Assembly (NCBI GenBank): GCA_016201065.1
Contig: JACQDL010000035.1
Span: 1 to 64,000 of the forward strand
Direction of reading: 5' to 3'
Origin: Actinomycetota bacterium
GTDB taxonomy: Bacteria > Actinomycetota > Actinomycetes > Mycobacteriales > JACQDL01
DNA: 64,000 nucleotides
Shown here in pieces: positions 5,740 to 49,475 of the stretch (position 1 is the stretch's first letter; every line of letters starts with the position of its first letter). A program made the position numbers and the translations under genes. The notes under the pieces are model-generated. The model searched no databases and was not told the DNA's origin. It saw only the letters and a list, made by a program, of their open reading frames with translations.

Positions 5740-6987
5740 ATGCGCATTGACCTGACCGACGAGACGCTCTTCGCCACCAACGCCTTCGAGCCGGTGTTCG
5801 CCTGGCTGCGGGCCAACGACCCGGTGCACCGGCACGAGGTTCCCGGCGGCGACGGCTTCTGGGTGCTGAGCCGGCATGCCGACATCGCCGCCGTCTACAG
5901 CAACGCCGAGGTGTTCAGCTCGCGGTTCGGAATGAACCTGGGCAGCGATCCGGCCGCCGTCGCGGCGGTGTCGCAGCGCATGTTGATCGTCTCCGACCCG
6001 CCCGACCACACCCAGCTCAAGCGGGTGCTCGCCAGGTCCTTCGCCGCCGACCGGATGCCCATGTTCGAGGCGCTGGTCGGCGATGTCGTCAATGACGTTC
6101 TCGCCGAGGCTGTCGACCGGTGCGCGGACGGTGCCACGGTCGACTTCGTCGACATCGCGAAGGCCGTGCCGAACCGGGTCGTCTGCGCCTTCATGGGCCT
6201 GGACCGGGTGGACTGGGCGTCGGTCGGCCACACCGTGACCGAGGCGTTCGAGGCCGAGGACGAAGCGGTCCGGACCGCGGCGCACGCCGAGATCTTCCTG
6301 CTCTTCGCCGACATGCTCGGCCGGAGGCGGAAGAACCCGGGCACCGACTTCATCAGCGAACTCGCCACGGCGTCCCGCGGGACCGGCGCCCCGGGCCGGC
6401 ACCGGCCCCTCACCGACGAGGAGATCATCTTCAACTGCAACGGTGTCCTCGCAGGCGGGAACGAGACCACGCGGTACTCGGCGGCCGGCGGGCTCCTCGC
6501 GCTGATCCAGAACCCGGCGCAGTGGGCGCAGTTGCGTGCGGGGGGCCCGGCACTGGTCCCCACGGCCGTCGAGGAGATCCTGCGGTGGACCGTCCCCGGC
6601 ATCCATGCGCTGCGGACCGTGACCCGCCCGACCCGCATTCATGACGTCCCACTCGACACTGGCGACCGGGTCACCCTGTGGAACGTCTCGGCGAACCGCG
6701 ACGAGTCCGTGTTCACCGATCCCGACGAGTTCCGGGTTACCCGATCACCCAACCGGCACCTGAGCTTCGGCCAGGGGCGGCACCAGTGCCTGGGTGCGCG
6801 GTTGGCGCGTTTGGAGCTCGCCGTGCTGTTCCGCGGGATCATCGAGCGTTTCGCCGGATTCGACCAGGCCGGTGACCCGGTGTGGAACTCGTCGAACTTC
6901 ACCTGGGGCCTGCGGAGCCTGCCGGTCACGCTGACACCCATCCCCGCAGGTCACCTCTCGTCGCGAAAGGCTCCCAGCCATGGCTGA
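5740..6987 (+). CDS. Cytochrome P450, likely acting on PCP-bound amino acid
   Basis: Soluble class I bacterial P450 of 415 residues. Visible are the I-helix oxygen-binding motif AGGNETT (near residue 238), the K-helix ExxR (EEILRW) and the heme loop FGQGRHQCLG with the thiolate Cys at about residue 350. ATG 5740 follows a GGAGG, giving normal spacing. Position after an A-PCP protein and a type II TE points to beta-hydroxylation of the tethered amino acid (NikQ, NovI and OxyD precedents). Its end overlaps the start of the large NRPS gene by 8 bases. Redox partners are not encoded here. An alternative is oxidation of a thiazoline or the indole later in the pathway. Confidence 0.92.
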   Translation: MRIDLTDETLFATNAFEPVFAWLRANDPVHRHEVPGGDGFWVLSRHADIAAVYSNAEVFSSRFGMNLGSDPAAVAAVSQRMLIVSDPPDHTQLKRVLARSFAADRMPMFEALVGDVVNDVLAEAVDRCADGATVDFVDIAKAVPNRVVCAFMGLDRVDWASVGHTVTEAFEAEDEAVRTAAHAEIFLLFADMLGRRRKNPGTDFISELATASRGTGAPGRHRPLTDEEIIFNCNGVLAGGNETTRYSAAGGLLALIQNPAQWAQLRAGGPALVPTAVEEILRWTVPGIHALRTVTRPTRIHDVPLDTGDRVTLWNVSANRDESVFTDPDEFRVTRSPNRHLSFGQGRHQCLGARLARLELAVLFRGIIERFAGFDQAGDPVWNSSNFTWGLRSLPVTLTPIPAGHLSSRKAPSHG

Positions 6988-11743: not shown

Positions 11744-14365
11744 TCAGTTCGGTGGCGCGATCAGGTCGGCGAGGCGATCCGCGGCGGTCACGGCCCGCGG
11801 GTCCTGGCCGAGCACGGCCGCGAGGTCGGTGACGACGGGATTGTCGAACACGACCCGCAGGGGCAGGTCCACGCCGATGAGCTCGTGCAGGTGGCGGACG
11901 AGGCGGATGCCACGAAGCGAGTCCCCGCCGAGCCGGAAGAAGTTGTCGGTCCGCCGCACATCGTCCAGGCCGAGCACGTCGGCGACCGCCGCGGCCACGA
12001 GGCTCTCCAACGCGGTCTCCGGGATCTCGTCCGCGCTCTCCACCGGGTCGACGTGCTCGCCGGCCGGCCGCCGCGCCCCCGCCGGCTCGGCGCCGCGCGC
12101 GAAGGCGGCGATGTCGCCGCCGGCACGTCCGGTGAGAACCAACCGGTCGACCTTTCCGTTGCGGGTCAGCGGGAGTGCGTCGAGGAGGGTGATCGCCGAG
12201 GGGACCATGTACCGCGGGAGGACGGCGCGCAGGTGCTCGTGGAGCTGGTCGCCGTCGGCCACAGCGCCGGGACGGAGCGTGACGAATCCGTGCAGCCGCC
12301 GCCCGCCGCCCGAGCCGGCCCTGGGCGCGATCACCACGGCGTGGTCGACCGCCGGGTGCTCACGCAGCGCCGCCTCGATCTCACCGAGCTCGATCCGGTA
12401 TCCCTGGATCTTGATCTGGAAGTCGATCCGGCCCAGGATCTCGATGTTGCCGTCCGGCAGCGAGCGCCCGCGGTCGCCGGTGAGGTAGGCACGCTCCCCG
12501 GTCTCGGGCAGCGTGACGAACTGCGCCGCGGTGCGCTCCTCGTCGTCCCAGTAGCCCAGGGCCAGCCCGATGTCGCTGGCCACCGCCATCTGGCCCGGCA
12601 CATGGACCGGGCGTTGGTACCACTCCTCGTCAACGATGTAGTACCGCTGGTTGCTGATGGGCTTGCCGTAGGGGATGCTCGTCCACCCGGGATCGACGGC
12701 GCCGATCGGGTAGAACACCGACCAGCAGATCGTCTCGGTCGGTCCACCGGAGCCGACGACCGAGATCCCGGGCGCCTGCGTACGCAGCCGATCGGGCAGC
12801 GTGAGCGGGATCCAGTCACCTGACAGGACCGCCAACCGTACGGAGGACAGCGGTGCGTCGGTACGGATCTCGGCCTGCCCGACGATCATCTCCATCAGCG
12901 CGGGGACGGAGTTCCACAGGGTCACCGACTCGGCGGCGATGAGGTCGACCCACCGGTCGGGCTGCGCGCGCTCGAAGTGGTCCGGCAGCACCACCGCGGC
13001 GCCGGCCGCCAGCACGCCGAAGACATCATAGATCGACGCGTCGAAATGAAGGCCGGAAATGGCGAGCAGCCGATCGTCGGGTCCGATCCCGAACCGCTCG
13101 TTGACGTCGAGGACGAGGTTCACCACGCCGCGGTGGTCGACGGTGACCCCTTTCGGTTCGCCGGTCGAACCCGAGGTCCAGATGACGTAGGCGGGATCGG
13201 TCGGCCCCTGGAGCGCGGGCAACGGGCCGTCGTCGCCGGACTCGAAGTCGGTGTCGACACAGTGCCGGACGATGTCGTCCGGCCAGGTCAGGCGGGTGTC
13301 GAGCGATGCCTGGGTGAGCACGTGGCGCACCCGGCCGCGACGTAGCAGCCGCTCCAGCCGGGCGGGCGGTACGGAGGCGTCGATGGGCAGGTAGGCGGCA
13401 CCGGCGGTGAGGACGCCATAGACCGCGGCGTATTGCTCCCACCCCTTCTCCATGACGATCGCGACCAGCTCGCCGACCCGTACGGTGGGCGCCGGGCCGG
13501 CGCCGCGGAGTCGGCGGCCGATCCGGTTCGCGTAGCCGACGAGCTCGGCGTAGCTGAGCCTGCGGCGGGCGTCGATGACCGCCTCCGCGTCGGGGTTGCG
13601 GCGCGCCGCCGACGCGAGGAGTTCGTGGAGCAGGACGGCGGGCACCTCCGCCGCCGTCGCGTTGATCTCGCCGAGGAGCGTGCGGTCGGCGGCCGGGACG
13701 AGGTCGAAGCGGCGGCGCTGCCAGTTCCGGGGGTCGGCACCCAGGGTCCCGAGCAGGCTCCGGTAGCTGTCGCCGGCCGCCGCGAGGAGCTGGTCGGGAA
13801 TGGCCCCGGCCGCCGTGTCCCAGGTCATGGTGAGGCCCTCACCGGCCGCCACGAACGTGACCTCCAGCAGCGACGCTGGGTCTTCCGGAACGGTCGTGCC
13901 GTCCGGCCGGACCCCACCGATCACGACGGGGCAGGGCGGCGCGGCGCGGCGGTGCGCCGTGGCGTCGCGGACCTGGTCGCTGATCGCGACGGCCCGCTGC
14001 GCGAAGGTACCGTCGCCGCGCTCGGCGACCACGACCGCCAGATCGCCGTCGGACCCGGAGCCCGTCACGAGCCGGATACCCAGGGTGAACGTCGGTTCCG
14101 CGGACCAGGCCCGAATCACCTCGGCGAAGGCCGCATGCAGGGCCGCGTCCAGGGTCACCCCGGCCTTCAGCGCCTGCCCGGCCAGTGCGCGGGTGTCCGG
14201 CGGCGGCAGGGTCAGCGTGCGCCGGGCGCGCGGTCGCGGACCAGCGGCGGCGGTCCGCAGCGGAAGCTCCGGCGGGCGCACCTCATCCTCCGGTCGGGAT
14301 CGCGTCTCGGTGCCGGCGTCGTGCGACGGTTCCGGGCTGGGCTGGATGTGTGCGAGTCCGGTCAT
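11744..14365 (-). CDS. NRPS: (Cy/C remnant)-A-PCP, cysteine-type
   Basis: 873 residues. Residues 55-235 resemble the C-terminal lobe of a condensation/Cy domain lacking the catalytic N-lobe. The A domain (about 260-760) has WTSGSTGEPKG, GGPTETICW, YLTGDRG, GRIDFQIKIQGYRIELGE and RNGKVDR. LHFDASIYDVFGVL, LWNSVPAL and LSGDWIP are typical of cysteine-activating domains in pyochelin/yersiniabactin-type synthetases; pocket residues read about D-A-Y-N-V-S-x-C-W against the Cys code DLYNLSLIW. The PCP is near the C-terminus (FFRLGGDSLRG). ATG 14365 has a GGAG six bases upstream. It would supply cysteinyl-PCP to the Cy domain of the convergent gene to build a thiazoline. Cys is the best guess, Ser or Thr less likely. 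Confidence 0.92.
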   Translation of the reverse strand: MTGLAHIQPSPEPSHDAGTETRSRPEDEVRPPELPLRTAAAGPRPRARRTLTLPPPDTRALAGQALKAGVTLDAALHAAFAEVIRAWSAEPTFTLGIRLVTGSGSDGDLAVVVAERGDGTFAQRAVAISDQVRDATAHRRAAPPCPVVIGGVRPDGTTVPEDPASLLEVTFVAAGEGLTMTWDTAAGAIPDQLLAAAGDSYRSLLGTLGADPRNWQRRRFDLVPAADRTLLGEINATAAEVPAVLLHELLASAARRNPDAEAVIDARRRLSYAELVGYANRIGRRLRGAGPAPTVRVGELVAIVMEKGWEQYAAVYGVLTAGAAYLPIDASVPPARLERLLRRGRVRHVLTQASLDTRLTWPDDIVRHCVDTDFESGDDGPLPALQGPTDPAYVIWTSGSTGEPKGVTVDHRGVVNLVLDVNERFGIGPDDRLLAISGLHFDASIYDVFGVLAAGAAVVLPDHFERAQPDRWVDLIAAESVTLWNSVPALMEMIVGQAEIRTDAPLSSVRLAVLSGDWIPLTLPDRLRTQAPGISVVGSGGPTETICWSVFYPIGAVDPGWTSIPYGKPISNQRYYIVDEEWYQRPVHVPGQMAVASDIGLALGYWDDEERTAAQFVTLPETGERAYLTGDRGRSLPDGNIEILGRIDFQIKIQGYRIELGEIEAALREHPAVDHAVVIAPRAGSGGGRRLHGFVTLRPGAVADGDQLHEHLRAVLPRYMVPSAITLLDALPLTRNGKVDRLVLTGRAGGDIAAFARGAEPAGARRPAGEHVDPVESADEIPETALESLVAAAVADVLGLDDVRRTDNFFRLGGDSLRGIRLVRHLHELIGVDLPLRVVFDNPVVTDLAAVLGQDPRAVTAADRLADLIAPPN

Positions 14366-26325: not shown

Positions 26326-31791
<5,466 letters not shown>

Positions 31792-31904
31792 CCGACCGAG
31801 CCCCTCCTGCCCAAGGCACCAGTCGGTCGACCGGCGAGCTGGGTCGTTCCTCTTTGCGGCGGATGGTGACTGGTCTGAGCGTAGTGAGGTTATCTCAGCG
31901 GTGT

Positions 31905-32258
31905 TCACTTCCAGAGTCTGTTGAGGACGAGTGCGGCTCGCACGATGTCACCGATCCGGCTGGGGCTCAGCGTGATCCGACTGAGCGCACACAGGCGTTC
32001 CTCGAGCTCAGCGGCGGCACGCTCCCCGAGCGCCCGTACCCCTCGTAGCAGGGCGTTGTCGGTCTGCGTGGCGGCATGACGGCGCAGGTGGGAGTTGCCG
32101 TGCGGCTTCTTGAAGGGGTGGTGGACACACAGTGCCGGCACGTGGCAGTCAGGCACGACCAACTCCGGCACGGTGGCCACCTCCGCCGCCAACTCGACCA
32201 CTGGCGCGGCTGTCCGGGCTGACCCCGTTTGAGTTGCTGCCCGAGCGGCCGCGCCCAC
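31905..32258 (-). pseudogene. DDE transposase fragment (C-terminal)
   Basis: The reading frame encodes the end of an IS5/IS4-like DDE transposase: HPFKKPHGNSHLRRHAAT and VRALGERAAAELEERL match the terminal region in which the catalytic Glu helix lies, but the preceding catalytic Asp regions are missing. Upstream sequence is unrelated, so this is a truncated remnant immediately beside the carboxylase gene start. Confidence 0.65.
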
Positions 32259-32386
32259 CTCGTCGCGCGGGGCTCGGTGCCGTGACCGGGTTCGTCGTGC
32301 CGCAACTCTTGGCCGACCGGCTGGCGCGGCTCAGCTGCGAGTGCGGAGCCACGCTGGCCATGGTGCTGTTCGCCGGGCTCTTGTGA
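32200..32386 (+). pseudogene. NRPS condensation-domain fragment
   Basis: About 60 residues (ARLSGLTPFELLPERPRP, then VTGFVVPQLLADRLARL and CGATLAMVLFAGLL) match the segment of NRPS condensation domains after the active-site region, in which the bridge reads LxGLxPxELPxDRPRP and is followed by a helix ending MVLLAGF. Nothing before or after it continues the domain. It is a relic of a larger NRPS gene destroyed by insertion elements. Confidence 0.7.
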
Positions 32387-32511
32387 CGGTTCCGTGGGTC
32401 GTTTCTCGTGATCATCGGCCGGGGAGGGTGGGGCACAGGCCGCTGAGGAGCCTCGTCGGATCGAGCGTGGGGTGGGGGTCGGCTGCGCCGCGTGGGCCGG
32501 GAGACGCTGGT

Positions 32512-32763
32512 GTGGCGGCGGGCGAGCATGTCGCGACGCCAGCGCGGGACCGTGTCGGGGTGGACCAGCAGCCGTAGGCTCCGCAGTGTCGGTCGCGGCA
32601 GGGGGTGGAGCAGTGCGGCCAGCAGCGCCCGGTCGGCTGGCTCGAACCGGATCTTCTGTGGGCCGAGTTGGCGCTGCAACACGGTGATCTGATGGCGCAG
32701 CGCGAGGATCTCGACGTTCTTGTCCCGATCACTGCCCGGCAGCATGTGTAGCAGCGCGAACAC
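32512..32763 (-). pseudogene. Integrase-type transposase N-terminal fragment
   Basis: About 84 codons encode the helical N-terminus common in actinobacterial rve-type transposases (VEILALRHQITVLQRQLG, ADRALLAALLHPLPRP, VHPDTVPRWRRDMLARRH). The catalytic core that should follow is absent; the frame runs on into unrelated sequence. Confidence 0.7.
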
Positions 32764-32827
32764 GTTCCAACATCGACGTCCTGGAACGCCAACGCGGGAC
32801 CGCCACCGTCCTCGCCGACGACGCCAC

Positions 32828-32837
32828 CCACCGAGGC
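32828..32837. repeat. Left target-site duplication of ISAs1-like element
   Basis: CCACCGAGGC, repeated exactly at 34237-34246. A 10-bp duplication is within the known range for ISAs1-family insertions. Confidence 0.88.
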
Positions 32838-34236
32838 CAGGGTCTTTGCGTTGTCGTTTATGTGCTGGTCAGGGCCGTGATCAGGGCTGGTGTTGGTTGG
32901 ACGCTGGCGCGGATGGCGTGGGCGGTGTTGGTGTGGCCGGCCAGGCGGTGGAAGCCGATGGCTGCTTCGCGGAGCACGGAGTACACGGCTGGCCCGTTGC
33001 CGGTCCGCGCCCTCTGCTCATCCTCACGCAGGGTGACGTCCTTGACGTAGTGGAGGCGGTTCTCGATGTGCCATTCCAGGCGGGCGTAGACGTTGAGATC
33101 ACCCGGATCGGCTTCTTCGGCGGGCAAGGTGGTGATCAGGTAGGCGGTCTCTCGGGTGGTCTTGCCGGTGATGGTGCGGGTGCGGGTGATCCGTACCGCA
33201 CGCACCGCGGTCTCGAACCCGGTGCCGAGCCCGCCGGGGGTGTCCACGGTGACGGCCTTCACGGTGCGGGTCTCTTTGCGGCCGTGGCCCACATCCCGGG
33301 TGGTGTTGCCGACGGGGATCTTCGCCCAGGGCAGGTTCTTGACCTTCGCATAGACGCTGGGCTGGTTCCGCTTGACCGGGACCAGCAGGTGCGCCCCCAG
33401 TTCGGCGATGTCGGTGAGGTTGGCGCGTTGGGTCTGCTGGGCGTCGGCAACGAACAACACCTTCTCCCCCGACCCCGGCCAGAAGCGCACAAGATTCGGT
33501 GATCACGGTCCTGAACAGGGCTGTTTCCCCACCCTTGGTGGCCATGACCGCCCGGGCGAGCACCATCCCGGCCAGGGTGTCGAACGCCGAGAGGATGAGG
33601 GTCTTCGCCCCCGTCGCCGTGGCAGGTGCCCCGGGCGACCTTCCCGTCGATGGACACCACCCGCAACCGGCACCCGGCACCGGCCTGCCCGGGGTCGCCT
33701 GTGCGTGTGGGACGGGGGGTGTGGCGTTGGAGCAGCCACCGGGTCAGGGCCTGCCCCAGGGCGATCGGGTCGACGCGGCACAGCAGACGCCACAGTGTCG
33801 AGCACACCGGCCGTCGTGTCAGTCCAAGGATCTCCAGGTCCTTCTCGTCGAGATTTTGGACCCGATCCGCCATGCCGGCAAACGTGACCGTCCCCGTGCA
33901 CACCGCCATCACGGCTACTGCGAGCATCCCGGTGAGTGGGTAGCGGATCCCACGCGGGTCCCGGGGATCGGCCACGTAGGCCAGTGCCGCCAACAACCCG
34001 AGTCGTTCACTTTCCGTGACCGCAGAGAGAGGGGTCTCATCGGTGATCAGGGTGTCGTACAGGGCGCTGATGGGAGAAGATGGCATGGCGGGTGTGGCCT
34101 CGTCTGGAGTTGTCGGTTCTAGTCAAACTCCATGATTCCCGACCAGCCGCACCCGCCCCACACCAACCCCAACACCCCACCAGCGGGCACATCCCCGCAG
34201 CTCAACCCATGATCAACAAACTACGCAAAGACCCTG
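32838..34236. mobile_element. ISAs1-family insertion sequence (1.4 kb)
   Basis: Bounded by 13-bp terminal inverted repeats CAGGGTCTTTGCG (left end 32838) and CGCAAAGACCCTG (right end 34236) and flanked by a perfect 10-bp direct repeat CCACCGAGGC. It contains a single leftward ISAs1-type transposase reading frame, broken by frameshifts. Intact ends and target duplication show it moved here by transposition fairly recently; its own transposase is now dead. It interrupted an older integrase-like coding remnant: joining the flanks across the duplication restores an open frame reading through the junction. Confidence 0.88.
32858..34086 (-). pseudogene. ISAs1-family transposase, frameshifted
   Basis: Translation starts at 34086 (LAALAYVADPRDPRGIRYPL, then VSIDGKVARGTCHG with the first catalytic Asp). 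Homology then jumps frame near 33630 (TGAKTLILSAFDTLAGMVL) and again near 33490 (VLFVADAQQTQRANLTDI through HIENRLHYVKDVTLRED, REAAIGFHRLAGHTNTAHAIR). At least two frameshifts separate the three parts of one normal-length transposase, so it is inactive unless sequencing errors are involved. Confidence 0.88.
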
Positions 34237-34246
34237 CCACCGAGGC
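34237..34246. repeat. Right target-site duplication of ISAs1-like element
   Basis: CCACCGAGGC, the exact partner of 32828-32837. Confidence 0.88.
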
Positions 34247-34395
34247 TGGGACAGCGAAACAGAACGCCACCTGCGGCTGATCACCCGGATCAATACCCTC
34301 ATCGAGGCCGCCGCGACACGCCCACAATCCATGTGACCCAACCCACGGAACTCCACGCACACAACGAATCCGGGCACGCATTGGCCGGTTAATGT

Positions 34396-34565
34396 TACGA
34401 CAACGCGGTCTCGGAATCGTTCTTCGCGACCTACAAGAAGGAGCTTATCCATACTCGCCCGTGGCCCACGGTCCGGGACCTCACCGTCGAGACCCGTGAC
34501 TGGATCGAGAACTACTACAACGCGAGCAGGCGACACTCCACGCTCGAATACTTGACACCGACAGA
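34396..34565 (+). pseudogene. IS3-family transposase fragment (OrfB C-terminus)
   Basis: Encodes YDNAVSESFFATYKKELIH and WIENYYNASRRHSTLEYL, the end of the rve integrase core of IS3-family OrfB proteins including the catalytic Glu. The N-terminal two thirds are missing, and the 3' end runs into the left inverted repeat of the next element. Confidence 0.8.
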
Positions 34566-34570
34566 GAGGC

Positions 34571-35032
34571 TTATTCAGCGGCCAGTTTGTAGAAGTGTAG
34601 GGCGATGACGGTCGAGATGGTTTGCGGGAATGTGTTCACTGGCCGGCGGTAGTCGGCGTGCAAGATTCTCCAAGTTTTGAAGTTTGCGATCGTTTGCTCG
34701 ATGACGTAGCGGATCTTGTTGACTTCCTTGTTGAATTCCTTTTCCCAGTCGAGCAGGTCACGGTGGGCTGGTTTCTTCTTCGGTGTGAGCATGTCGTTAC
34801 CGATGTATCCCTTGTCACCCATCCAGTTCTCGGGATTCACTCCGAGAAGGACGCCGGATTCCCTCAGGCAATAAGTGTCATGGTGGTGTCCGTCAATCGC
34901 ATCGGAAATCCACGCGAGACGTCCGGTCAGTGTGCATACGACCTGGACGTTCATGCCAGTAGTCTTGTGTTTTCCGGAGAACAAGGTCGGACGGGACGCC
35001 CACGACCAGCACGGAAGCAAGGTTCCGTCCAC
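34571..35032 (-). pseudogene. IS5-like transposase, DDE C-terminal part
   Basis: 153 codons beginning VDGTLLPCWSW (first catalytic Asp), then GMNVQVVCTLTGRLAWISDAI, the second Asp region GDKGYIGNDMLTP, and the Glu-bearing helix YVIEQTIANFKTWRILHADYRRP. This is the catalytic half of an IS5-type transposase. The N-terminal half lies upstream in another frame behind an inserted copy of the element's end, so the gene is probably broken; programmed frameshifting is a less likely alternative. Confidence 0.8.
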
Positions 35033-35035
35033 GAT

Positions 35036-35047
35036 GAGGCTTATTCA
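35036..35047. repeat. Internal copy of the IS terminal repeat
   Basis: GAGGCTTATTCA exactly matches the left end of the element at 34566 and is followed by a similar CGGCC. It sits at the break between the two transposase parts, suggesting a nested or partially deleted second copy. Confidence 0.75.
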
Positions 35048-35056
35048 CGGCCTAAT

Positions 35057-35434
35057 TCAAACAAGATCACCAGGCTCATCGGTGCAGGTCAGGGCATGAT
35101 CCACGCAGTCGATCGGCATCCGTGAATAACCCTCGATGTACTGGCTGTTCGGGTCCAGGTCGTCGGCAGTTGGGATGCCGCCCGCTAAGACCTGTCCCAG
35201 GACGACGGTCAATGCCGCGATAGCTCTACTGATTGTCGGCTGGGACACACCGTGGTCTTCAGCTAGTTCGTCTTGTGTTCGGTTTCGGCGAAGGTACTTC
35301 AGCGTCACGACCACCGACTGGAATAGTCCGAGAGAAGGCCGCCATGCGCGTCGGCCCGTTTCTTGGCATGCGGCGCGTACTCGAACGCATAGCTCGACGA
35401 GCTGTTCGTGCGTGAAGCCAGTGTTATGATACAT
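35057..35434 (-). pseudogene. IS5-like transposase, N-terminal HTH part
   Basis: 125 codons starting MYHNTGFTHEQLVELC, with the helix-turn-helix NRTQDELAEDHGVSQPTISRAIA. This is the DNA-binding half of an IS5-type transposase; it ends just before the internal end-repeat, and the catalytic half continues in another frame downstream. Confidence 0.78.
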
Positions 35435-35555
35435 CGTGGACGGTCCGTTTCTCTCGAATTGGGTGTGGTAAACACAATTCTTCCGAGAAGCGGGCCGTCT
35501 TTCACGTCGACACGCCGAAAACGCTCAAACTACCCGTGGTGAATAAGCCTCCAGG

Positions 35556-35816
35556 TTACGAGGGGAAACCCACCTCGCGCGTGAAGGGATTGCCGATCGT
35601 CTGCGGGTCGCCGGTGCTGCGACAGTTCTCGAAGTACACCCGCATACCGGTTCCGGCCCGCCGCCGCAAGACCGTGACGCCGAGGTCGGTCACGGTGCCC
35701 ACGACCACCCCACCCTTGCGTGCGGCGTAGCTCGGCAGATCCGTACCGCCCCCGGCCAGCGAGATGCGCAGCGGAGCGGTGCTGACGACCATTCCGCGCT
35801 CGTCGTCGCGGTTCAC
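35556..35816 (-). pseudogene. hddA: D-glycero-D-manno-heptose 7-phosphate kinase, truncated
   Basis: The first about 65 residues match GHMP kinases of the HddA type (MVVSTAPLRISLAGGGTDLPSY, GGVVVGTVTD). HddA phosphorylates heptose 7-phosphate at C1 and is normally about 340 residues; here homology stops near 35630, and the frame ends at 35556 beside the IS element. The lost part is not found on the far side of the IS. GTG 35816 overlaps the gmhB stop (GTGA), so this was the last gene of the leftward operon. As it stands the enzyme cannot be functional; ATP-binding and catalytic regions are missing. Confidence 0.8.
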
Positions 35817-36469
35817 CCGAGACCCTCCGTTGTGCCTGGTGCGAGACCTGCTTCGCCTGGTGCGAGGGCTGTTCGACGCACGGCCGCCACAACCTCGCCC
35901 TCCGCCTCCAGCATGCGCAGGACGTGCCCGAGCGCTTCGGCGGTGCTCGCCGCGACCAGGCTGCCGCCGGACGCTGCTGCAGCGTCCACGTCCTGGGCGC
36001 GGTGCACCAGGATGCAGCGGCAGCCGGCCCGGTGGCCCGCCTCGACATCGGTGGGTGCGTCGCCGATCATCCACGAACGCCGCAGATCGACACCGTGCTG
36101 GGCGGCGGCGCGCATGAGCATCCCCGGCTCCGGTTTGCGGCACGAGCACCGGACGGACAGCGCTGGGACGGAGCCCTCGAGGTGGTGCGGGCAGTGGTAA
36201 ACCCCGTCGAGCCGCACTCCCAGGCCGGCCAACCGCTGGTCCACGCTCGCCTGGGCGGCCTCGAACTCGTGCTCGCTGAACAGGCCGCGTGCGATCCCGG
36301 ACTGGTTCGTGACCACGATCAGCAGCACACCGCGCCGCTGGAGCCGCAGCAGGAACGGAACCACGTCGTCGTACAGAACCAGGTCAGCCGGCCTGGACGG
36401 ATAGTGGCGCGGGTGGGTCAATGTCCCGTCCCGGTCGAGGAAGACCGCAGCCCGCCCGTCCGCCGTCAC
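35813..36469 (-). CDS. gmhB: D,D-heptose 1,7-bisphosphate phosphatase (GmhB)
   Basis: 218-residue HAD phosphatase. FLDRDGTL (Asp12 nucleophile, Asp14), VTNQSGIARG, the zinc-binding CPHH...CSC loop specific to GmhB, RKPEPGM and MIGDAPTDVEAG are all present. It removes the C7 phosphate of heptose 1,7-bisphosphate to give heptose 1-phosphate for nucleotide activation. GTG 36469 overlaps the upstream stop (GTGA); the frame is open further upstream but that part is antisense shadow. The C-terminal 40 residues are an extra Ala-rich tail. Works with GmhA and the HddA kinase of this cluster. Confidence 0.93.
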   Translation of the reverse strand: MTADGRAAVFLDRDGTLTHPRHYPSRPADLVLYDDVVPFLLRLQRRGVLLIVVTNQSGIARGLFSEHEFEAAQASVDQRLAGLGVRLDGVYHCPHHLEGSVPALSVRCSCRKPEPGMLMRAAAQHGVDLRRSWMIGDAPTDVEAGHRAGCRCILVHRAQDVDAAAASGGSLVAASTAEALGHVLRMLEAEGEVVAAVRRTALAPGEAGLAPGTTEGLG

Positions 36470-38343
36470 CCGTCCCCGTTCTCGCCGGGGAGCTCGGGCC
36501 GCATGGGCCGTGCGGCGATCGACTGTGCAGCGACCCGTGGCCGGGAGGCGGAGAGGATGTCCGCGACCCGGCGCAGCCGCGGGTCCTCGCACAGCTCCTC
36601 GAGCCGGATCGGCAGCGGGATGCGCCAGTTCGGGTACTGACTCGCGGCCGTCCCGGAGATGTTGGGCTGGCGCACCTCCCCTAGAACGTCGCCGGGGGAG
36701 GCGAGCACGACGCGGCACGGTGTCTGCGCGAGCAGACGGTGCAGGGCAACGACGATCTCCTCGAGACTGTCGGACCGGTCGGCCAGCCCCTCCGCCTCGA
36801 GCAGCGTGAGGAGCCGGCCGTGATCCGCGGCGGCGGCACGTTCCGCTTCAAGCCCGCAGCGCAGCACGCCGGCCTGCACGGCGGCGCGCACGTGGGCGCC
36901 GCTGAGGAATCCGGGGACGGTCGGTAGGTCGTGCGTGGTCAAGGTGGCGACCGCCGGCTCGGGCCACTGCGCAGGCGGGAGGAAGCCGCCGTGCGCGTCG
37001 CGGTTGAGCCACAACACTGACCAGCTCAGCACGTCGTGGGCACGCAGACCGCGGGTCATCCGCGGCTGGATGGTGCCGAGATCCTCCCCGATCAGGACCG
37101 TCCCTGCGAGCGCGGCCTCCTCGGTGAGGATGCGTAGCATCGTGTGCGGGTGGTAGCGGACGTATGCGCCCTGATCCGGGGCGGCACCGGGTGGCAGCCA
37201 CCAGAACCGCCACAAGCCGGCCGCGTGGTCCAGCCGGACGGCGTCGGCGTGCCGCAGCACGCCGCGCATGGCGTCCCGGTAGGCCGCGTAGCCGGTCGCG
37301 GCCAGGCGGTCCGGCCGCAGGGCCGCCAGCCCCCAGTCCTGGCCCTGCGGGCTGAAGGCGTCCGGCGGCGCGCCGAGTCGGGCGCCGGGCGCGACGATGT
37401 CCTGGAGCCGCCACGCGTCCGCGCCGCCTTGGGTGATGCCTACGGCCAGATCGTGCACGACGCCGATCGCCATCCCGGCCGCGACCTTGTGCACCGCGGT
37501 CAGTTGCTCCTCGCAGCAGCGCTGCACCCAGGTGTGGAACGCGACGCGGTCCGCCATCATGACGGCGGCATCCCCGACGGCGGGGCTGTCCGGACGTCTC
37601 AGCGGTGCGGGCCAAGACCGCCAGTCCGGGCCGTGTCGCTCGGCGAGTGCGGAATAGGTGGCGAACAGGCGCAGGGCGGGGTCGTGGTCGCTGGTGGTCC
37701 GTCCCGGACGGTGGTTCCACAACAGGTCGAGGGCTTCGCGTTTGGCCCGCCACGCCGCCTGGACGTCGATCAGATCGCTGCCGGAGCGCGGCCGCAGCGC
37801 GTCGACGCGAGCCCTCAGCTCCGGCGAGCCGCACCGGTACGCCTCGATGTCCTCGATGCGCAGGTACAGCGGATGGCGGTGGCGTCGGTCGGAGGCGGCG
37901 TACGGCGACTCCGGCAGCGGGTCGTCCGGCAGGAGCGCGTGCAGCGGGCTGAGCGTGACCGCTCCGGCGCCGGTGCTCGCAGCCCAGCGCACGAAGTGCG
38001 GGACATCGGCGAAGTCGCCGATGTCCCAGGACGCGGAGGAACGGACCGAGTAGGCCTGAAGCATCCAGCCCCACGTGGGCGGCGGGTGCGGGATCGGGAC
38101 CGGGCCGCCCTGCGACGAGGACGGCGCTGCGATCGGACCCTCGTCCGGTGGCGGCGCGGTCCCTGGCACCTGGCGCAATGCGGCACGAACGGCGCAGGAG
38201 GTGCTCGCGTCCACCTCCAGCAGACCGAGAATCGCGATCACCACATCGGGGTCCACGTCCACGCGGCGCCCCTGCCAGTCGTCGTGCCAGGTCTCCACGC
38301 CGTGCGCCCGGGCGAGCCGCTCGAGTTCCGGATCTGCGCGCAC
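36466..38343 (-). CDS. malQ: 4-alpha-glucanotransferase (amylomaltase, GH77)
   Basis: 625-residue GH77 enzyme that transfers alpha-1,4-glucan segments between acceptors. The nucleophile Asp in AVRLDHAAGLWRFWW, the acid/base Glu in LIGEDLGTI and the third carboxylate in LTTHDLPTV are visible, together with SPYAASDRRHRHPLYL in the N-terminal half. GTG 38343 lies four bases after the carrier-protein stop. In a biosynthetic operon it may extend or trim a glucosylated product, as the amylomaltase AcbQ is associated with acarbose genes; a mere glycogen role is unlikely given its position between a carrier protein and GmhB. Confidence 0.9.
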   Translation of the reverse strand: MRADPELERLARAHGVETWHDDWQGRRVDVDPDVVIAILGLLEVDASTSCAVRAALRQVPGTAPPPDEGPIAAPSSSQGGPVPIPHPPPTWGWMLQAYSVRSSASWDIGDFADVPHFVRWAASTGAGAVTLSPLHALLPDDPLPESPYAASDRRHRHPLYLRIEDIEAYRCGSPELRARVDALRPRSGSDLIDVQAAWRAKREALDLLWNHRPGRTTSDHDPALRLFATYSALAERHGPDWRSWPAPLRRPDSPAVGDAAVMMADRVAFHTWVQRCCEEQLTAVHKVAAGMAIGVVHDLAVGITQGGADAWRLQDIVAPGARLGAPPDAFSPQGQDWGLAALRPDRLAATGYAAYRDAMRGVLRHADAVRLDHAAGLWRFWWLPPGAAPDQGAYVRYHPHTMLRILTEEAALAGTVLIGEDLGTIQPRMTRGLRAHDVLSWSVLWLNRDAHGGFLPPAQWPEPAVATLTTHDLPTVPGFLSGAHVRAAVQAGVLRCGLEAERAAAADHGRLLTLLEAEGLADRSDSLEEIVVALHRLLAQTPCRVVLASPGDVLGEVRQPNISGTAASQYPNWRIPLPIRLEELCEDPRLRRVADILSASRPRVAAQSIAARPMRPELPGENGDG

Positions 38344-38347
38344 GGAC

Positions 38348-38680
38348 TCAGGCTCCTTCGGACTTTCCGGGTACCCCCGTGCCCAGGGTGTGCAGCTTCT
38401 TGCCCAACTCGCGAGGCGTCGGGTGGTCGAAGATGACGGACATCGTAACGTCGACCCCCAGACGCTCACTGAGCATCGGGACGAGGCGCACCGCGGAGAT
38501 CGAGTTCCCGCCCAGGTCGAAGAAGTCGTCGTCCAGGCCGACCTCGTCCGCGTTGAGCGCCTCGCGCCACAACGCGCTCACGCACTGCGCGACGCCGAGC
38601 GGTGTGCCGGCGTCCAGGTCGGTGTCGGCAGCGCTGTCCGCGCCCCCTCCGGGAGCCGGGTCGTGAGCTGATGTGGTCAC
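38348..38680 (-). CDS. Free-standing carrier protein (PCP/ACP)
   Basis: 110 residues, one phosphopantetheine carrier domain: DDDFFDLGGNSISAVRLV with the modified Ser, followed by FDHPTPRELGKKL. LGGNS is the peptidyl-carrier type. It is likely the partner of the free-standing adenylation enzyme (53755-55209) and the free-standing condensation protein encoded just upstream. ATG start at 38680. Confidence 0.9.
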   Translation of the reverse strand: MTTSAHDPAPGGGADSAADTDLDAGTPLGVAQCVSALWREALNADEVGLDDDFFDLGGNSISAVRLVPMLSERLGVDVTMSVIFDHPTPRELGKKLHTLGTGVPGKSEGA

Positions 38681-38798: not shown

Positions 38799-40118
38799 TC
38801 ATCGCTGCTCCCGTTCGGTGGGTGTCGGGTCGGGCTGCGCGCCGAGCTCCGCCAGCTGCTGCCCGAAGCGGGCGAGCAGGCCCTGCGGCAGATCGCCTCC
38901 GACGACGTCGGTCCGGTAGGTCAGGCTCGCGGTCACGCCGTCGTCACCGTAGGCCGTGATCAGGTGCAGCGGGCGGCGCGCGGAGACCGCCGGCGGCGGC
39001 CGGAGCCTTTCCGTCGTGAGCCCGGCCAGCAGCGGCCCGGGCCGCGCGAAGGAGTTCGGGAAGAAGGCGAACTTGACGGGGTACAGGTCCGTCCCACCGT
39101 GGTCCTCCAGCACGGTCTCCCACTGGACCCGCGGCATCGCGTACCAGGTGCGCAGCTGAGCGTCGACGTCGCGCACCGACTCGGCCGGCGTTGCTGCGGC
39201 CGACAGGTCCAGGCCGACGAACAGCGTGGTGGCGAAGTAGCCGATCGCCCGGACCGCCTGCGGAGTCGTTCGCCCGGCGTACGCGCTCCCGGCGAACGGC
39301 TGCGGCGTGCCCAGCGTGTCCGCCACCGCCCGCAGCAACGCCACGGCGCCGAGCACGTACGGCGTGACCCGGTACGCCTTCGCCGCGGCCACGAGCCCCG
39401 GGGTGAGGCCAGCCCAGGTGCGCTCGACCGTGGCCGCCGGACCGGTCCGGCCCGGCGTCCTGGCGGACAGTGACCGGATCGCCGCGTAGCCGCGGTCGAA
39501 CAGCCTGCCCAGGCTCGGCTCGCCGGGCTGCGGCGGCTCGGGGGGAGCGTCACGGTACTGCGCGGGCTGCGGACGCTCGCTTCCCCCGCACCGGATCCGC
39601 TGGTACTCGGCAGTGAGATCCTCGTAGAGGAGCATGAACGACCAGGCGTCGAACACGAGGTAGTGGCCGGACAGCAGTAGGACGCTGGTCTCGGCGTCGA
39701 TCCTCGCGACCCACACCCTCAGCGGCGGTTCACGGTCGAGCGCCATCGGGGAGCCGACCCAGGCCATCCCATCCCGGACGGCATCCTCGACGGTGGGTAC
39801 CGCTTGCCGGGTGCGCACGATGGCGTCGAGCACGCCGTCCGACGGCGGCAGCACCCGGTAGGTGCGGCCGTGCGCCGGGTAGACGGAGCGGATCATGTCG
39901 TGCCGCCCGACGACGCCGGCCAGCGCGGCCTTGAGCGCTCTGCCGTCCAGCGGCCCGCGCAGGACGAAGCTCTCGACGTTGAGATAGTGGGCGTCGACGC
40001 GGCCGCCCAGGAAGTCCAGCATCCTGCGCTGCTGGACCGTGGTCGGGTACTCCGCGGGGGCGCGGTCTGCCGAGGGCCGCGCCCGGCCAGCCGCCGTGCT
40101 CCCGTGTGCCGAGCCCAC
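38799..40118 (-). CDS. Free-standing condensation-domain protein
   Basis: 439 residues of the NRPS condensation superfamily without other domains (PTTVQQRRMLDFLGGR at the start, RHDMIRSVYP, VKFAFFPNSF). The active-site segment reads GHYLVFDAW, i.e. H-Y-xxx-D-A where canonical enzymes have HHxxxDG: the catalytic second His is replaced by Tyr if aligned this way. It may be a non-canonical ester/amide synthase or an acyltransferase on a sugar. GTG 40118 follows directly on the stop of the DHQS-like gene. The following 118 bases before the carrier gene show nothing recognisable. Confidence 0.85.
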   Translation of the reverse strand: MGSAHGSTAAGRARPSADRAPAEYPTTVQQRRMLDFLGGRVDAHYLNVESFVLRGPLDGRALKAALAGVVGRHDMIRSVYPAHGRTYRVLPPSDGVLDAIVRTRQAVPTVEDAVRDGMAWVGSPMALDREPPLRVWVARIDAETSVLLLSGHYLVFDAWSFMLLYEDLTAEYQRIRCGGSERPQPAQYRDAPPEPPQPGEPSLGRLFDRGYAAIRSLSARTPGRTGPAATVERTWAGLTPGLVAAAKAYRVTPYVLGAVALLRAVADTLGTPQPFAGSAYAGRTTPQAVRAIGYFATTLFVGLDLSAAATPAESVRDVDAQLRTWYAMPRVQWETVLEDHGGTDLYPVKFAFFPNSFARPGPLLAGLTTERLRPPPAVSARRPLHLITAYGDDGVTASLTYRTDVVGGDLPQGLLARFGQQLAELGAQPDPTPTEREQR

Positions 40119-45055: not shown

Positions 45056-46195
45056 ATGAAGGTTCTGGTAAGCGGTGGCGCCGGGTTCATCGGCTCCCAC
45101 ACGACGGATGCGCTGTTGGCCGCCGGCCACCGGGTCCGGATCCTCGACGCCCTGCTGCCGCCCGTCCACCCCCGGCACCGGCTGCCGTCCTGGGTCCCGA
45201 CGGATGACGTGGAGTGGGTCGACGGCGACGTGCGCGACCCTGACGCGTGGCGGCGTGCGCTGGTTGGGGTGGGCGCGGTCTACCACCTGGCGGCCTACCA
45301 GGACTACCTGACGGACTTCAGCACGTACTTCAGCACGAACACCACGTCCACCGCCCTGCTGTACGAGACGATCGTGGCCGGCCGGCTGCCGGTGCGGAAG
45401 GTGGTGATCGCCTCCAGCCAGGCCGTCTACGGCGAGGGCGCCTACTGGTGCACCCGGTGCACTCATCCCTTGGCCTTCCGGGGCGCTCCGCGTCCGCTGG
45501 CCCAGCTGGAGCAGGGCCGCTGGGACGTCCGGTGTCCGAACTGCGGGCTGCCCATGGAACCGGCCTGCACCGACGAGTCCGCGGTGCGCCCGCACAACTC
45601 CTACGCGGTGTCGAAGTACGCCGGGGAACTGGCCGCGCTGGCCCTCGGCGGCCGGTACGACATCCCCACCGTCGCGATGCGGTACTCGATCGTGCAGGGC
45701 AGCCGGCAGTCGTTCCACAACGCCTACTCGGGCATCCTACGGATCTTCTCGCAACGCCTGGTGGCAGGCCGCCGGCCGGTCCTCTTCGAGGACGGGCAGC
45801 AGATCCGCGACTACGTGTCCGTCCACGACGTGGTCCGCGCGAACCTGTTGGTGCTGGAGTCGCCGCAGGCGGGTGGGCAGGTGTTCAACGTCGGCGGTGA
45901 CCGGAAGGAGACCGTCCGCGAGTACGCGGAACGCATCGCGCGATGCGTCGGCACCGACCTCGGCATCGACGTCCCCGGCCGTTACCGGGCCGGAGACACC
46001 CGGCATGTCTTCTCGTCCGTCGAACGCCTGCGCGCGCTCGGCTGGAAGCCGCACGTGGAGCTGGATGACGTCGTCCGGGAGTACCTCGACTGGGCCGTCG
46101 CGCAACCGGACTTCGGCGACGTCAGCGACGCGGCCGAGATGCACATGCAAACCATCGGCGCGGTCCGGCAGAGCAGGCTGGGAGCAGATGCGTGA
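45056..46195 (+). CDS. SDR sugar epimerase/dehydratase with Cys4 insert
   Basis: 379-residue extended SDR acting on a nucleotide sugar. NAD-binding GGAGFIGS, YHLAAYQ, the catalytic SSQAVYGE and YAVSKYAGE (YxxxK). Between them is an insert with CTRC (Cys132, Cys135) and CPNC (Cys160, Cys163), a likely zinc ribbon not seen in ordinary GalE/RmlB. ATG 45056 follows GAGG. The gene is followed with a 4-base overlap by gmhA, consistent with modification of a heptose nucleotide (oxidation, epimerisation or dehydration). Confidence 0.9.
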   Translation: MKVLVSGGAGFIGSHTTDALLAAGHRVRILDALLPPVHPRHRLPSWVPTDDVEWVDGDVRDPDAWRRALVGVGAVYHLAAYQDYLTDFSTYFSTNTTSTALLYETIVAGRLPVRKVVIASSQAVYGEGAYWCTRCTHPLAFRGAPRPLAQLEQGRWDVRCPNCGLPMEPACTDESAVRPHNSYAVSKYAGELAALALGGRYDIPTVAMRYSIVQGSRQSFHNAYSGILRIFSQRLVAGRRPVLFEDGQQIRDYVSVHDVVRANLLVLESPQAGGQVFNVGGDRKETVREYAERIARCVGTDLGIDVPGRYRAGDTRHVFSSVERLRALGWKPHVELDDVVREYLDWAVAQPDFGDVSDAAEMHMQTIGAVRQSRLGADA

Positions 46196-46794
46196 ACGGT
46201 GACGACACCCACCGCGAGATCGAGCGCTACCTCGGCGAGGTGACCGCGGCCGTCGCGGCGCTCTCGGTCCCCGGCCTGGAACGCGTCTTCCGCCTGGTCG
46301 AGGACGCCTACCGATCGGGGAGGACGATCTTCGTCTGCGGCAACGGCGGCAGCGCCTCCACCGCCTCGCACCTCGTGGTGGACCTGGCCAAGAACACCCG
46401 GCGCTCCGGGGTCGTGCCGGTGCGGGCGCTGTCCCTGGCCGACCACATGGCGGGACTGACCGCGTGGGCCAACGACGTCGACTACTCCGCGGTGTTCTCC
46501 GGCCAGCTGCAGGGCCTGGTCGGTCCGCGGGACGTGGTGGTCGGCTTCACCACGAGCGGCAACTCCGAGAACATCCTCCAGGCGTTCCGGGCCGCGCGCG
46601 ACGCCGACGCGATCACCGTCGCCTTCCTGGGCGCTGACGGGGGTAAGGCGCGCGAGTTGGCGGACGCCTACGTGCTCGCGCCCGGCTCGACCATCGAGCA
46701 GCAGGAGGACCTCCATCTGATGCTGGCACACCTGCTGACCCGGCACATGCGCTGCGTGGTGGCGCGGATCGCCGACCCGGCGGCGGTGCCGTGA
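46192..46794 (+). CDS. gmhA: Sedoheptulose 7-phosphate isomerase (GmhA)
   Basis: 200-residue SIS-domain isomerase converting sedoheptulose 7-phosphate to D-glycero-D-manno-heptose 7-phosphate. CGNGGSASTASHLVVDLAKN binds the phosphate, GFTTSGNSENIL is the second phosphate loop, and the C-terminal IEQQEDLHLMLAHLL supplies the catalytic His. GTG 46192 overlaps the SDR stop. Together with gmhB and the broken hddA it defines a heptose branch of this cluster. Confidence 0.94.
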   Translation: MNGDDTHREIERYLGEVTAAVAALSVPGLERVFRLVEDAYRSGRTIFVCGNGGSASTASHLVVDLAKNTRRSGVVPVRALSLADHMAGLTAWANDVDYSAVFSGQLQGLVGPRDVVVGFTTSGNSENILQAFRAARDADAITVAFLGADGGKARELADAYVLAPGSTIEQQEDLHLMLAHLLTRHMRCVVARIADPAAVP

Positions 46795-49475
46795 ACCCCG
46801 GGACATGGGTGGAGGACGCGCGTGCCCCGCACACGGCAGATCACGGCCTGCTGCGGCGCCTCGTGCCAGCGACCACCGACGATGCGCGACTCGCCCTGGT
46901 GGCGTCGAACGGGGTGTCGATCGACTACGGTGCGCTGCGCCGTGAGGTCGCGAGCACGGCGGACCGGCTGGCCCGCCGGCTACCCGGGGACGGCTCGGTC
47001 GGGGTGGCGCTGTCGGATCCGATCGCCCTGGTCGTCTGGACGTTCGCCGCGATCGCCCTGCACCGGCCGGTGTTCCCGGTCCAGTACGACCTCACCGCCA
47101 GGGAGATCGACGCCGTCGCGGAGCACGAGCACGCCGCCGCGATCCTGGTGGACGACCCCGACGGGGGAGCCGACCTTCGGGTGTTCCCCGACGGCCCGCC
47201 CGGCCGGGACACCAGGCCGGCACCGGGCGTCCACTTCTACACCTCGGGTACGTCGGGTCGGCCTAAGGGCGTGGTGAGAACCCACGAGTCGCTGGTCACG
47301 GAGGCGCGCGCGATCGTCGAACGGCTGGAGTACACCGCGGACTCGGTGCTTCTGACGGCGGTTCCCCTCTACCACGCCTACGGCTTCTCGTTCGGCGTCC
47401 TGGCGGGCCTCGCGGCGGGCGCGACCGTCGTGGCGTCCTCGCCGCGCACGCCGTCCGCCTTCGCCGAACGTCTGTCCCGGCACGGCGTGAACGTCGTGCT
47501 CGGTGTGCCCGGACTGTACGACGTCTGGTCCCGGCGCAGGCCGAACCGCGACCCCCTGCCGCGCCCGCGCCTGTGCGTGAGCTCCGGCGCGCTGCTCCCG
47601 CTCGAGGTGGCGCAGCGCTTCCGGCAGACGTGGGGTGTGCCGGTCGCGGTGCAGTACGGCTCCACCGAGTGCGGCGCGATTAGCGTCGACCGGGAGGCCA
47701 CCGGCCTGTCCGCCTGCGTCGGCCCGCCCTATCCGGGCGTGCGGATCGAGGCCGGCACCCGGGAACGACCCGCACCCGTCGTCGTCCACAGCGACTACGC
47801 CGCCGTGGGGTACGTCCGCCAGACCGACATCGGCGAGGACGGCAAGTTCACCGCCTCCGGGATCCGCACCGGGGACGTCGGATGGGTGGACGACGCCGGG
47901 CGCCTGCACCTGACCGGGCGGCGGTCCGACCTGGTGAACGTGCACGGCCGCAAGGTCGATGTCGAAGAGGTCCGCACGGTCGTGGTAGCGCATCCCGGCG
48001 TCGTGGACGCCGTGGTGCTCGGGGTCGATGCGGGGCCGGGCCAGTGGGTGGCCGCGTTCGTCGTCGCCCCCGGAGTGGCCGGTGCCGCCGGTGAGGCGGC
48101 CTGGGAGGACGCGCTCTTCCACCACTGCCGGGAGCGCCTGGCCGCTCACAAGGTGCCGCGGCGGTTCTTCTTCTTCAACCGGATCCCGCGCACCCCGACG
48201 GGCAAGCCGCGCCGAGCCGATCTGCTCGCGGCGGCCAGGGCCGCTGTCGAGGACGGCACCGACGCGGATCGCACGACGGGCCTGCCGGTGACCCGGACCA
48301 GCGGTCGCCTGCCCGACGGCAGGCGCATCCACTACTTCAGCACCGCCGGGCGAGCCTGCCTCCCGACGCTCCGCCCCACCGCCGAGGTCGCCTCACCGAC
48401 CGAGTCGCAGTTGCGCTGGGACGTCTGGGAGGAGGACTGGGTGGTCATCGCGGCGCATCGGCAGCGTCGCGACGCGCCGACGTCCGGTACTGCGCGCTGC
48501 CCGCTGTGCCCGTCCGCGAGCCCGGGCGTCGGCGAGATACCGTCCGCCGCGTACGAGGTGGCCGTCTTCGACAACCGGCACCCTGCGCTGCCCGGGCGGG
48601 CGGTGGCCGGCGATGGTCCGCTCACGGGCGCGGGCCACCCCCTCACCGGCGGGTGCTGCGAGGTCCTCAGCTACACCGCCGATCACGACGGCGCGCTGTC
48701 GCGGCTGCCGCTGACCCGCATCGAGACCGTGATAGCCGCGTGGGCGGACCGCACCGCGGCACTCAACGCGCGGCCGGACGTGGCCCAGGTGCTGTGCTTC
48801 GAGAACCGCGGCGCTCAGGTCGGGGCGACCCTCGCGCATCCGCACGGCCAGATCTACGGGTATCCGGTCGTTCCTCCCCGGCTCCAGCGGCTGCTGAGCG
48901 TCGCCGGGCGGCGGTGGGAACGGCACCAGGAGTGTGTGGTGTGCGTGACTCTGCAGCGGGGGAGCGGCACCCGTGACCGGATCGTGGCGGACGGCGCGCA
49001 CTGGACCGCCTTTGTGCCCTACGCGGCTCGGTGGCCCTACGAGGTGCGCCTGGTGCCGCACCGCCACGTCCCGGATCTGACGGTCCTGAGCGGAGCGGAG
49101 AGAACGGACCTGGCCCGGGTACTGCGGCATGTGCTGCGCCAGTTCGACGAACTGTTCCAGCAGCCCGCCCCGTACGTCCTCAGCTGGATCCAGGCGCCGG
49201 CTCGCCAGGACAGGCACGTGGCCCACGCCCACGCCCAGATCGTGTCTCCGCTGCGCTCACGCGACCGGCTGAAGTACCTGGCTGCCGGCGAGTTGGCCGC
49301 CGGGACCTTCGTCAACGAGGTGCCCCCGGAACGCGCCGCAGCCGATCTGCGCAGCGCCTGGCCCTGGTGTTACGCCGACCCGGAGGACGCCGACAGCGAG
49401 ACCCACGTCAGCGCCGGCGCGCACGCCGCCGGCGATCGGGGCGAGTGCGAAGAACAACGGCAACGCACGCAATGA
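46791..49475 (+). CDS. Fusion: AMP-forming acyl/aryl ligase + GalT-like nucleotidylyltransferase
   Basis: 894 residues, two enzymes in one chain. Residues 1-500 are an ANL ligase: YTSGTSGRPKGVV, YGSTECG, TGDVGWVDDAGRLHL, GRRSDLVNVHGRKVDVEEV and the C-terminal catalytic Lys in TPTGKPRR. Residues about 510-880 are a GalT/HIT-superfamily domain: WVVIAAHRQRR, zinc ligands CPLC (Cys570, Cys573), FENRGAQVGATLAHPHGQ with the nucleotidylated His685, and HAHAQ near the end. GalT-type enzymes move NMP between sugar 1-phosphates. Placed directly after gmhA (GTGA overlap), this domain could activate heptose 1-phosphate in place of HddC or HldE. The ligase part might activate an aromatic or fatty acid for the ACP encoded downstream. 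Confidence 0.9.
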   Translation: MNPGTWVEDARAPHTADHGLLRRLVPATTDDARLALVASNGVSIDYGALRREVASTADRLARRLPGDGSVGVALSDPIALVVWTFAAIALHRPVFPVQYDLTAREIDAVAEHEHAAAILVDDPDGGADLRVFPDGPPGRDTRPAPGVHFYTSGTSGRPKGVVRTHESLVTEARAIVERLEYTADSVLLTAVPLYHAYGFSFGVLAGLAAGATVVASSPRTPSAFAERLSRHGVNVVLGVPGLYDVWSRRRPNRDPLPRPRLCVSSGALLPLEVAQRFRQTWGVPVAVQYGSTECGAISVDREATGLSACVGPPYPGVRIEAGTRERPAPVVVHSDYAAVGYVRQTDIGEDGKFTASGIRTGDVGWVDDAGRLHLTGRRSDLVNVHGRKVDVEEVRTVVVAHPGVVDAVVLGVDAGPGQWVAAFVVAPGVAGAAGEAAWEDALFHHCRERLAAHKVPRRFFFFNRIPRTPTGKPRRADLLAAARAAVEDGTDADRTTGLPVTRTSGRLPDGRRIHYFSTAGRACLPTLRPTAEVASPTESQLRWDVWEEDWVVIAAHRQRRDAPTSGTARCPLCPSASPGVGEIPSAAYEVAVFDNRHPALPGRAVAGDGPLTGAGHPLTGGCCEVLSYTADHDGALSRLPLTRIETVIAAWADRTAALNARPDVAQVLCFENRGAQVGATLAHPHGQIYGYPVVPPRLQRLLSVAGRRWERHQECVVCVTLQRGSGTRDRIVADGAHWTAFVPYAARWPYEVRLVPHRHVPDLTVLSGAERTDLARVLRHVLRQFDELFQQPAPYVLSWIQAPARQDRHVAHAHAQIVSPLRSRDRLKYLAAGELAAGTFVNEVPPERAAADLRSAWPWCYADPEDADSETHVSAGAHAAGDRGECEEQRQRTQ

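Follow-up and report, generated by a model that had tools for sequence, protein, structure and literature searches.

Background

Fragments of NRPS genes in patches rich in IS elements are an expected by-product of the turnover of biosynthetic clusters. A similar association has been described on a Corynebacterium plasmid, where a transposase remnant flanks an NRPS gene region (PMC2830990).

In this article we analyze a short piece of an NRPS condensation (C) domain that lies within a 3.6-kb patch made up of degraded IS pieces, with a biosynthetic gene cluster to either side. The window, i.e., the whole stretch of DNA that was analyzed, comprises 64,000 nucleotides and corresponds to bases 1-64000 of contig C59 in a draft genome of 3,647,124 bases in 65 contigs. 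NRPS genes occupy positions 3046-24117 to the left of the patch, and to its right a free-standing C domain (38799-40118) is found next to genes encoding DHQS-II and an aldolase of the DeoC type. The principal question is whether the piece marks an NRPS gene that once stood between the two clusters or whether it reached this place together with mobile DNA.

Results and discussion

A fragment of a condensation domain

The C-domain piece, referred to below as the scrap, and its two candidate extensions are as follows.

32201..32383, + strand: the scrap, covering 61 residues of an NRPS condensation domain that fall between its YxDFAVW and GTPVAGR motifs
32175..32203, + strand: probable further C-domain stretch (LRRQLDHWR) upstream of the scrap, in another frame, before a frameshift, indicated by HMM alignment and DNA similarity
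32384..32419, + strand: possible continuation past the stop codon (LL*RFRGSFLVIIG), into which the HMM alignment extends

The frame 32201-32383 reads LARLSGLTPFELLPERPRPPRRAGLGAVTGFVVPQLLADRLARLSCECGATLAMVLFAGLL and is followed by a TGA stop codon at 32384-32386. The default hmmscan of the 84-residue ORF of the scrap listed no family in either Pfam or NCBIfam, which is why own-genome and order-wide searches and home-made profiles were used instead. In a protein search of its own genome, the best match of the scrap apart from itself is at C20:55449-55625 (43% identity, E 3.6e-5), in a frame of 2,171 residues that contains three C domains (PF00668); three more matches have E values of 0.5 to 2.3. 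Matches at E<=0.01 are found in 17 of 61 genomes, namely the genome itself, which is counted, and 60 relatives of the same order, none of them of the same genus or family. A larger search of the order yields matches at E<=1e-4 in 94 of 397 genomes (own counted), with a best non-self match at E 2.9e-10 and 49% identity, and the order-wide matches listed lie mostly within frames longer than 1,000 residues. The closest relatives in the order reach 49-52% identity. A sequence search against solved structures returned 12 matches, the best being the condensation domain of tomaymycin TomBC (E 0.0084).

Two profiles were built. When 31500-35800 was searched in six frames, an HMM made from 34 C-domain-containing frame pieces found the scrap frame with E 1.3e-18, a value that is circular to the extent that the 34 sequences were retrieved with the scrap itself. 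The scrap corresponds to positions 324-398 of this 588-position profile and aligns to many C domains nearly without gaps; the same search revealed no second significant C-domain piece in 31500-35800. The other HMM, made to avoid the circularity, consists of seven C domains from the same genome found with PF00668. It gives the scrap 15.2 bits, compared to a maximum of 6.4 bits among 589 scored shuffles (1,000 made). In a scan of the whole contig with a cut-off of E<=1e-3 this independent HMM does not report the scrap, which is reported there by the 34-piece HMM alone.

The sequence-only reading of this DNA described about 60 residues of a C domain lying alone in the IS patch, and the own-genome, order-wide and profile matches confirm this description. 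The same reading named a lack of profile similarity as the outcome that would speak against it. Formally, that is what the default Pfam and NCBIfam scans returned, but both home-made HMMs score the scrap above all scored shuffles, and we judge the miss to be a sensitivity failure on a short piece. A chance resemblance without any C domain, for which the empty default scans would be the argument, is therefore a negligible prospect in view of the two profiles and of the C-domain matches in many genomes. The matches support an NRPS gene as the ultimate source of the scrap, in a copy that has since been destroyed.

Extent and decay

The homology probably, if not provably, begins about 25 bp before the open frame, near position 32175, and crosses a frameshift at about 32203. 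Positions 305-323 of the 34-piece HMM, aligned in the upstream frame, directly precede positions 324-398 in the next frame, and the upstream stretch of the relatives ends in YWR, to which QLDHWR corresponds in the neighboring frame of the window, exactly abutting. The score of this 24-residue upstream stretch with the 34-piece HMM was reached by none of 1,892 scored shuffles (2,000 made), but with the own-genome HMM it was reached by 562 of 1,875, which lends no support to the extension. At the DNA level, annotated Streptomyces NRPS genes match 32186-32256 with 76% identity (E 2e-4) and 32175-32208 with 88% identity (E 0.09). On the other side, homology of the post-stop stretch to about 32419 is possible and unproven; 47 of 454 scored shuffles of 32384-32419 score as well.

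The scrap does not continue as an open frame within a synthetase: it runs into the stop at 32384 and has transposase fragments on either side. It also lacks the HHxxxDG motif, which in the profile consensus sits upstream of the aligned stretch, and consequently it cannot be a working C domain. (We take YxDFAVW, GTPVAGR and HHxxxDG to be motifs of the C-domain family; their letters are seen in the profile consensus.) The piece is more decayed than the sequence-only reading had noticed, with a probable start near 32175 across a frameshift and no catalytic motif. The G+C content at codon positions 1, 2 and 3 of the scrap frame is 0.77, 0.56 and 0.89, a coding-like pattern whose retention suggests that the decay may be recent.

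Transposase remnants on both sides

Both ends of the scrap adjoin truncated transposase genes.

31905..32171, - strand: IS-A, C-terminal ~88 codons of a DDE-type transposase, truncated at the junction with the scrap
32457..32763, - strand: IS-B, start of a transposase gene (N-terminal ~97 codons), broken off near the scrap

IS-A, which we assume to be IS5-like, is 53% identical over 74 of its 88 residues to a sequence in a relative (G036:C2, E 1.9e-13) and 46% identical to a piece on another contig of the same genome (G000:C18); the ungapped similarity runs to about the VPEL residues, at ~32171. A Pfam scan of its 117-residue ORF gave no significant family. IS-B, presumably a transposase judging from its sequence, is 66% identical to a sequence in G035:C37 (E 8.2e-33) and 45% and 41% identical to two others, and at the DNA level its resemblance to Streptomyces plasmids breaks off at 32457; the Pfam scan listed no family for it. 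Of 67 inverted-repeat pairs, the one at 32389-32410 and 34330-34351 was considered as marking the ends of IS-B; with 77% complementarity, it was judged to be due to chance. Since the scrap is joined at each end to the inside of a truncated transposase gene, neither flank is its original neighbor.

The remainder of the patch consists of the following elements, and beyond them a truncated gene of the right-hand cluster.

32838..34236, - strand: ISAs1-family element, transposase split between two frames (NF033564, E 8e-28; DDE_Tnp_1 and DDE_Tnp_1_assoc)
34390..34560, + strand: 3' piece of an IS3-family transposase gene, part of it from a DNA match and the rest read from the sequence
34566..35551, - strand: IS5-like element, transposase in two frames (DDE_Tnp_4, E 9e-28; HTH_Tnp_4, E 2.9e-9)
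35571..35792, - strand: first ~74 codons of a GHMP (heptose-kinase-like) gene, truncated beside the right end of the IS5-like element

The ISAs1-family element has 17-bp terminal inverted repeats (32838-32854 and 34220-34236) and is flanked by a 10-bp target duplication, CCACCGAGGC. The IS3 piece is 87% identical over 77 bp (34393-34469) to an annotated Rhodococcus IS3 transposase gene. The IS5-like element has 12-bp ends, GAGGCTTATTCA; it scored below the cut-offs of the NCBIfam IS5 models, and no matching target duplication was seen at its ends.

A dense mosaic of truncated pieces in a draft genome of 65 contigs raises the question whether unrelated pieces were wrongly joined in the assembly. 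We consider this very improbable. The ISAs1-family element has a proper target duplication, and only one 99-bp piece of the patch, from the IS5-like element, occurs elsewhere in the assembly; the patch is otherwise single-copy, which makes a repeat-driven misassembly less likely.

The kinase-like gene, whose hddA or heptose-kinase label is our assumption, is 36% identical over residues 1-74 to a 378-residue frame in a relative (G048). The right end of the IS5-like element lies about 20 bp from codon ~74, and no longer match to the remainder of the gene is present within the window; whole-genome searches with PF00288 and PF08544 gave four matches each, in frames on other contigs. These observations support the conclusion that a gene of the cluster bordering the patch was truncated. 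The truncation at the end of an IS5-like element that has no matching target duplication points to an IS-adjacent deletion there, without proving it. SIS (46192-46794) and HAD (35813-36718) genes are present alongside the truncated kinase gene and presumably provide the steps of gmhA and gmhB. With the kinase gene truncated, the right-hand cluster may have a broken heptose branch, or this branch may use another kinase.

Local or imported origin

The sequence-only reading held that an NRPS gene once stood between the present clusters and was destroyed, and that the clusters may have been larger or contiguous. Destruction of a local NRPS gene by IS insertions and deletions, with the scrap marking such an ancestral cluster, is a possibility that we hold only tentatively. 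It is consistent with the presence of NRPS genes on both sides of the patch, with the truncation of the hddA-like gene, which indicates that cluster genes have been damaged here, and with the occurrence, elsewhere in the genome, of a long frame whose C domain is 43% identical to the scrap. However, in one joint alignment the scrap is only 23% and 25% identical to two C domains of the left cluster and 22% and 19% identical to two on the right, one of which lies just beyond the window, compared to 39% for the best C20 domain, 10-35% for the other four domains of its own genome and 41-49% for six of the 34 relatives from other genomes. We regard the low likeness to the local domains as weak evidence against a local origin, because comparable divergence can exist among the modules of a single synthetase.

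The arrangement of the genes also speaks against a local origin. Transposase fragments rather than cluster genes lie at both ends of the scrap, and it is separated from the left cluster by genes for DUF4349 and PIN proteins and by a gene for a widely conserved biotin-dependent carboxylase of 1,860 residues, of which 15 of 40 relatives have a long frame with 57-89% identity over the first ~600 residues. The upstream regions of the carboxylase gene were compared in 12 of these 15 relatives; their predicted genes form one group of five (from four loci) and two pairs, one of which falls within a single locus, so that no conserved upstream neighbor, and hence no candidate for the original one, emerges among the 12. 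The part of the earlier proposal that holds is the NRPS source and the loss of that copy; a parent gene at this place and larger or contiguous clusters are possible but not supported, given the transposase genes at both ends, the 19-25% identities and the intervening carboxylase gene.

The alternative is that the scrap came with the transposase fragments, in mobile DNA or a moved segment, and was never part of a gene at this site. We give this about an even chance and, from the divergence between the scrap and the local C domains, slightly favor it over a destroyed local gene. The immediate neighbors are all truncated or degraded pieces of mobile elements, and the sequences closest to the scrap are found in C domains from other genomes (41-49% for the six compared). 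DNA resembling IS-B is found on Streptomyces plasmids and scrap-like NRPS genes on others, although no record was shown to carry both adjacent. Against import, the G+C content of the scrap (0.737) resembles that of two genes around the patch, for the carboxylase (0.723) and GH77 (0.73), and no donor above 52% identity was found. The protein search for a parent NRPS, proposed with the sequence-only reading, did lead to C domains in long frames, in this genome and across the order, but the 61-genome, 397-genome and named-contig searches contained no parent or donor above 52% identity. Back-translated peptides compared with the named genome contigs gave 590 pattern stretches, none confirmed, and tblastn against plasmids at E 0.01 gave no match. 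Likewise, no sister cluster was found with the free-standing C-domain protein of the right-hand cluster: none of 78 pattern stretches on the named contigs was confirmed, and among 394 genomes of the class (four candidates scored per genome where the candidate column was listed) four match at E<=1e-20, the genome itself included, the others at 30-34% identity.

Some 180-240 bp from the middle of one C domain, past the active-site motif, were very probably left after breakage on both sides, and the remnant is now enclosed by two transposase genes, with the 3' end of one on its left and the 5' end of the other on its right. We infer that the junctions were made by IS-adjacent deletions or illegitimate recombination; the same process probably acted at the border of the IS5-like element with the truncated kinase gene. 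A single deletion-ridden rearrangement that removed a whole NRPS module or gene joining both clusters is an unlikely common origin of the scrap and the shortened hddA-like gene. In that case, an aminohydroxybenzoate/heptose-type cluster would once have been joined to the second NRPS cluster and the ancestor would have made a larger hybrid compound.

Several other features were observed outside the patch. Weak similarity to the C-terminal part of C domains occurs at 13946-14269 (- strand), near the N-terminus of the A-T protein 11744-14365, and at 7373-7645 (+ strand), near the N-terminus of the A-T protein 6980-11605; both may be truncated C domains. A carrier-protein-like stretch at 38363-38596 (- strand; profile positions 49-121, E 1.7e-11) overlaps the start of the GH77 frame and is probably a free-standing carrier-protein gene missed by the choice of ORF. 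One frame at 46791-49475 combines AMP-binding enzyme and GalP_UDP_transf domains; DHQS-II, DeoC, Trp_halogenase and Lant_dehydr_N genes occur in the window as well. Just past the window, at 64655-65596 of the contig, a further C-domain piece lies in a 487-residue frame near the end of the contig, whose length is 70,960.

Conclusions

The scrap is very probably a non-functional pseudogene fragment, an ordinary genomic fossil. It does not merit annotation as a gene, and a cluster boundary can reasonably be drawn at the patch.

Compared to the NRPS condensation domain (PF00668), the scrap represents about an eighth of the domain and is devoid of the HHxxxDG motif; unlike an intact C domain, it has no flanking A or T domain and carries a stop codon and a probable frameshift. 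A fragment of this sort in an IS-rich patch matters little by itself. The association on the Corynebacterium plasmid is similar, but the NRPS gene there is largely complete (PMC2830990). With other IS graveyards beside biosynthetic clusters the patch shares truncated and frame-split IS elements, a target-duplicated insertion and a truncated neighboring gene, and nothing distinguishes it from them.
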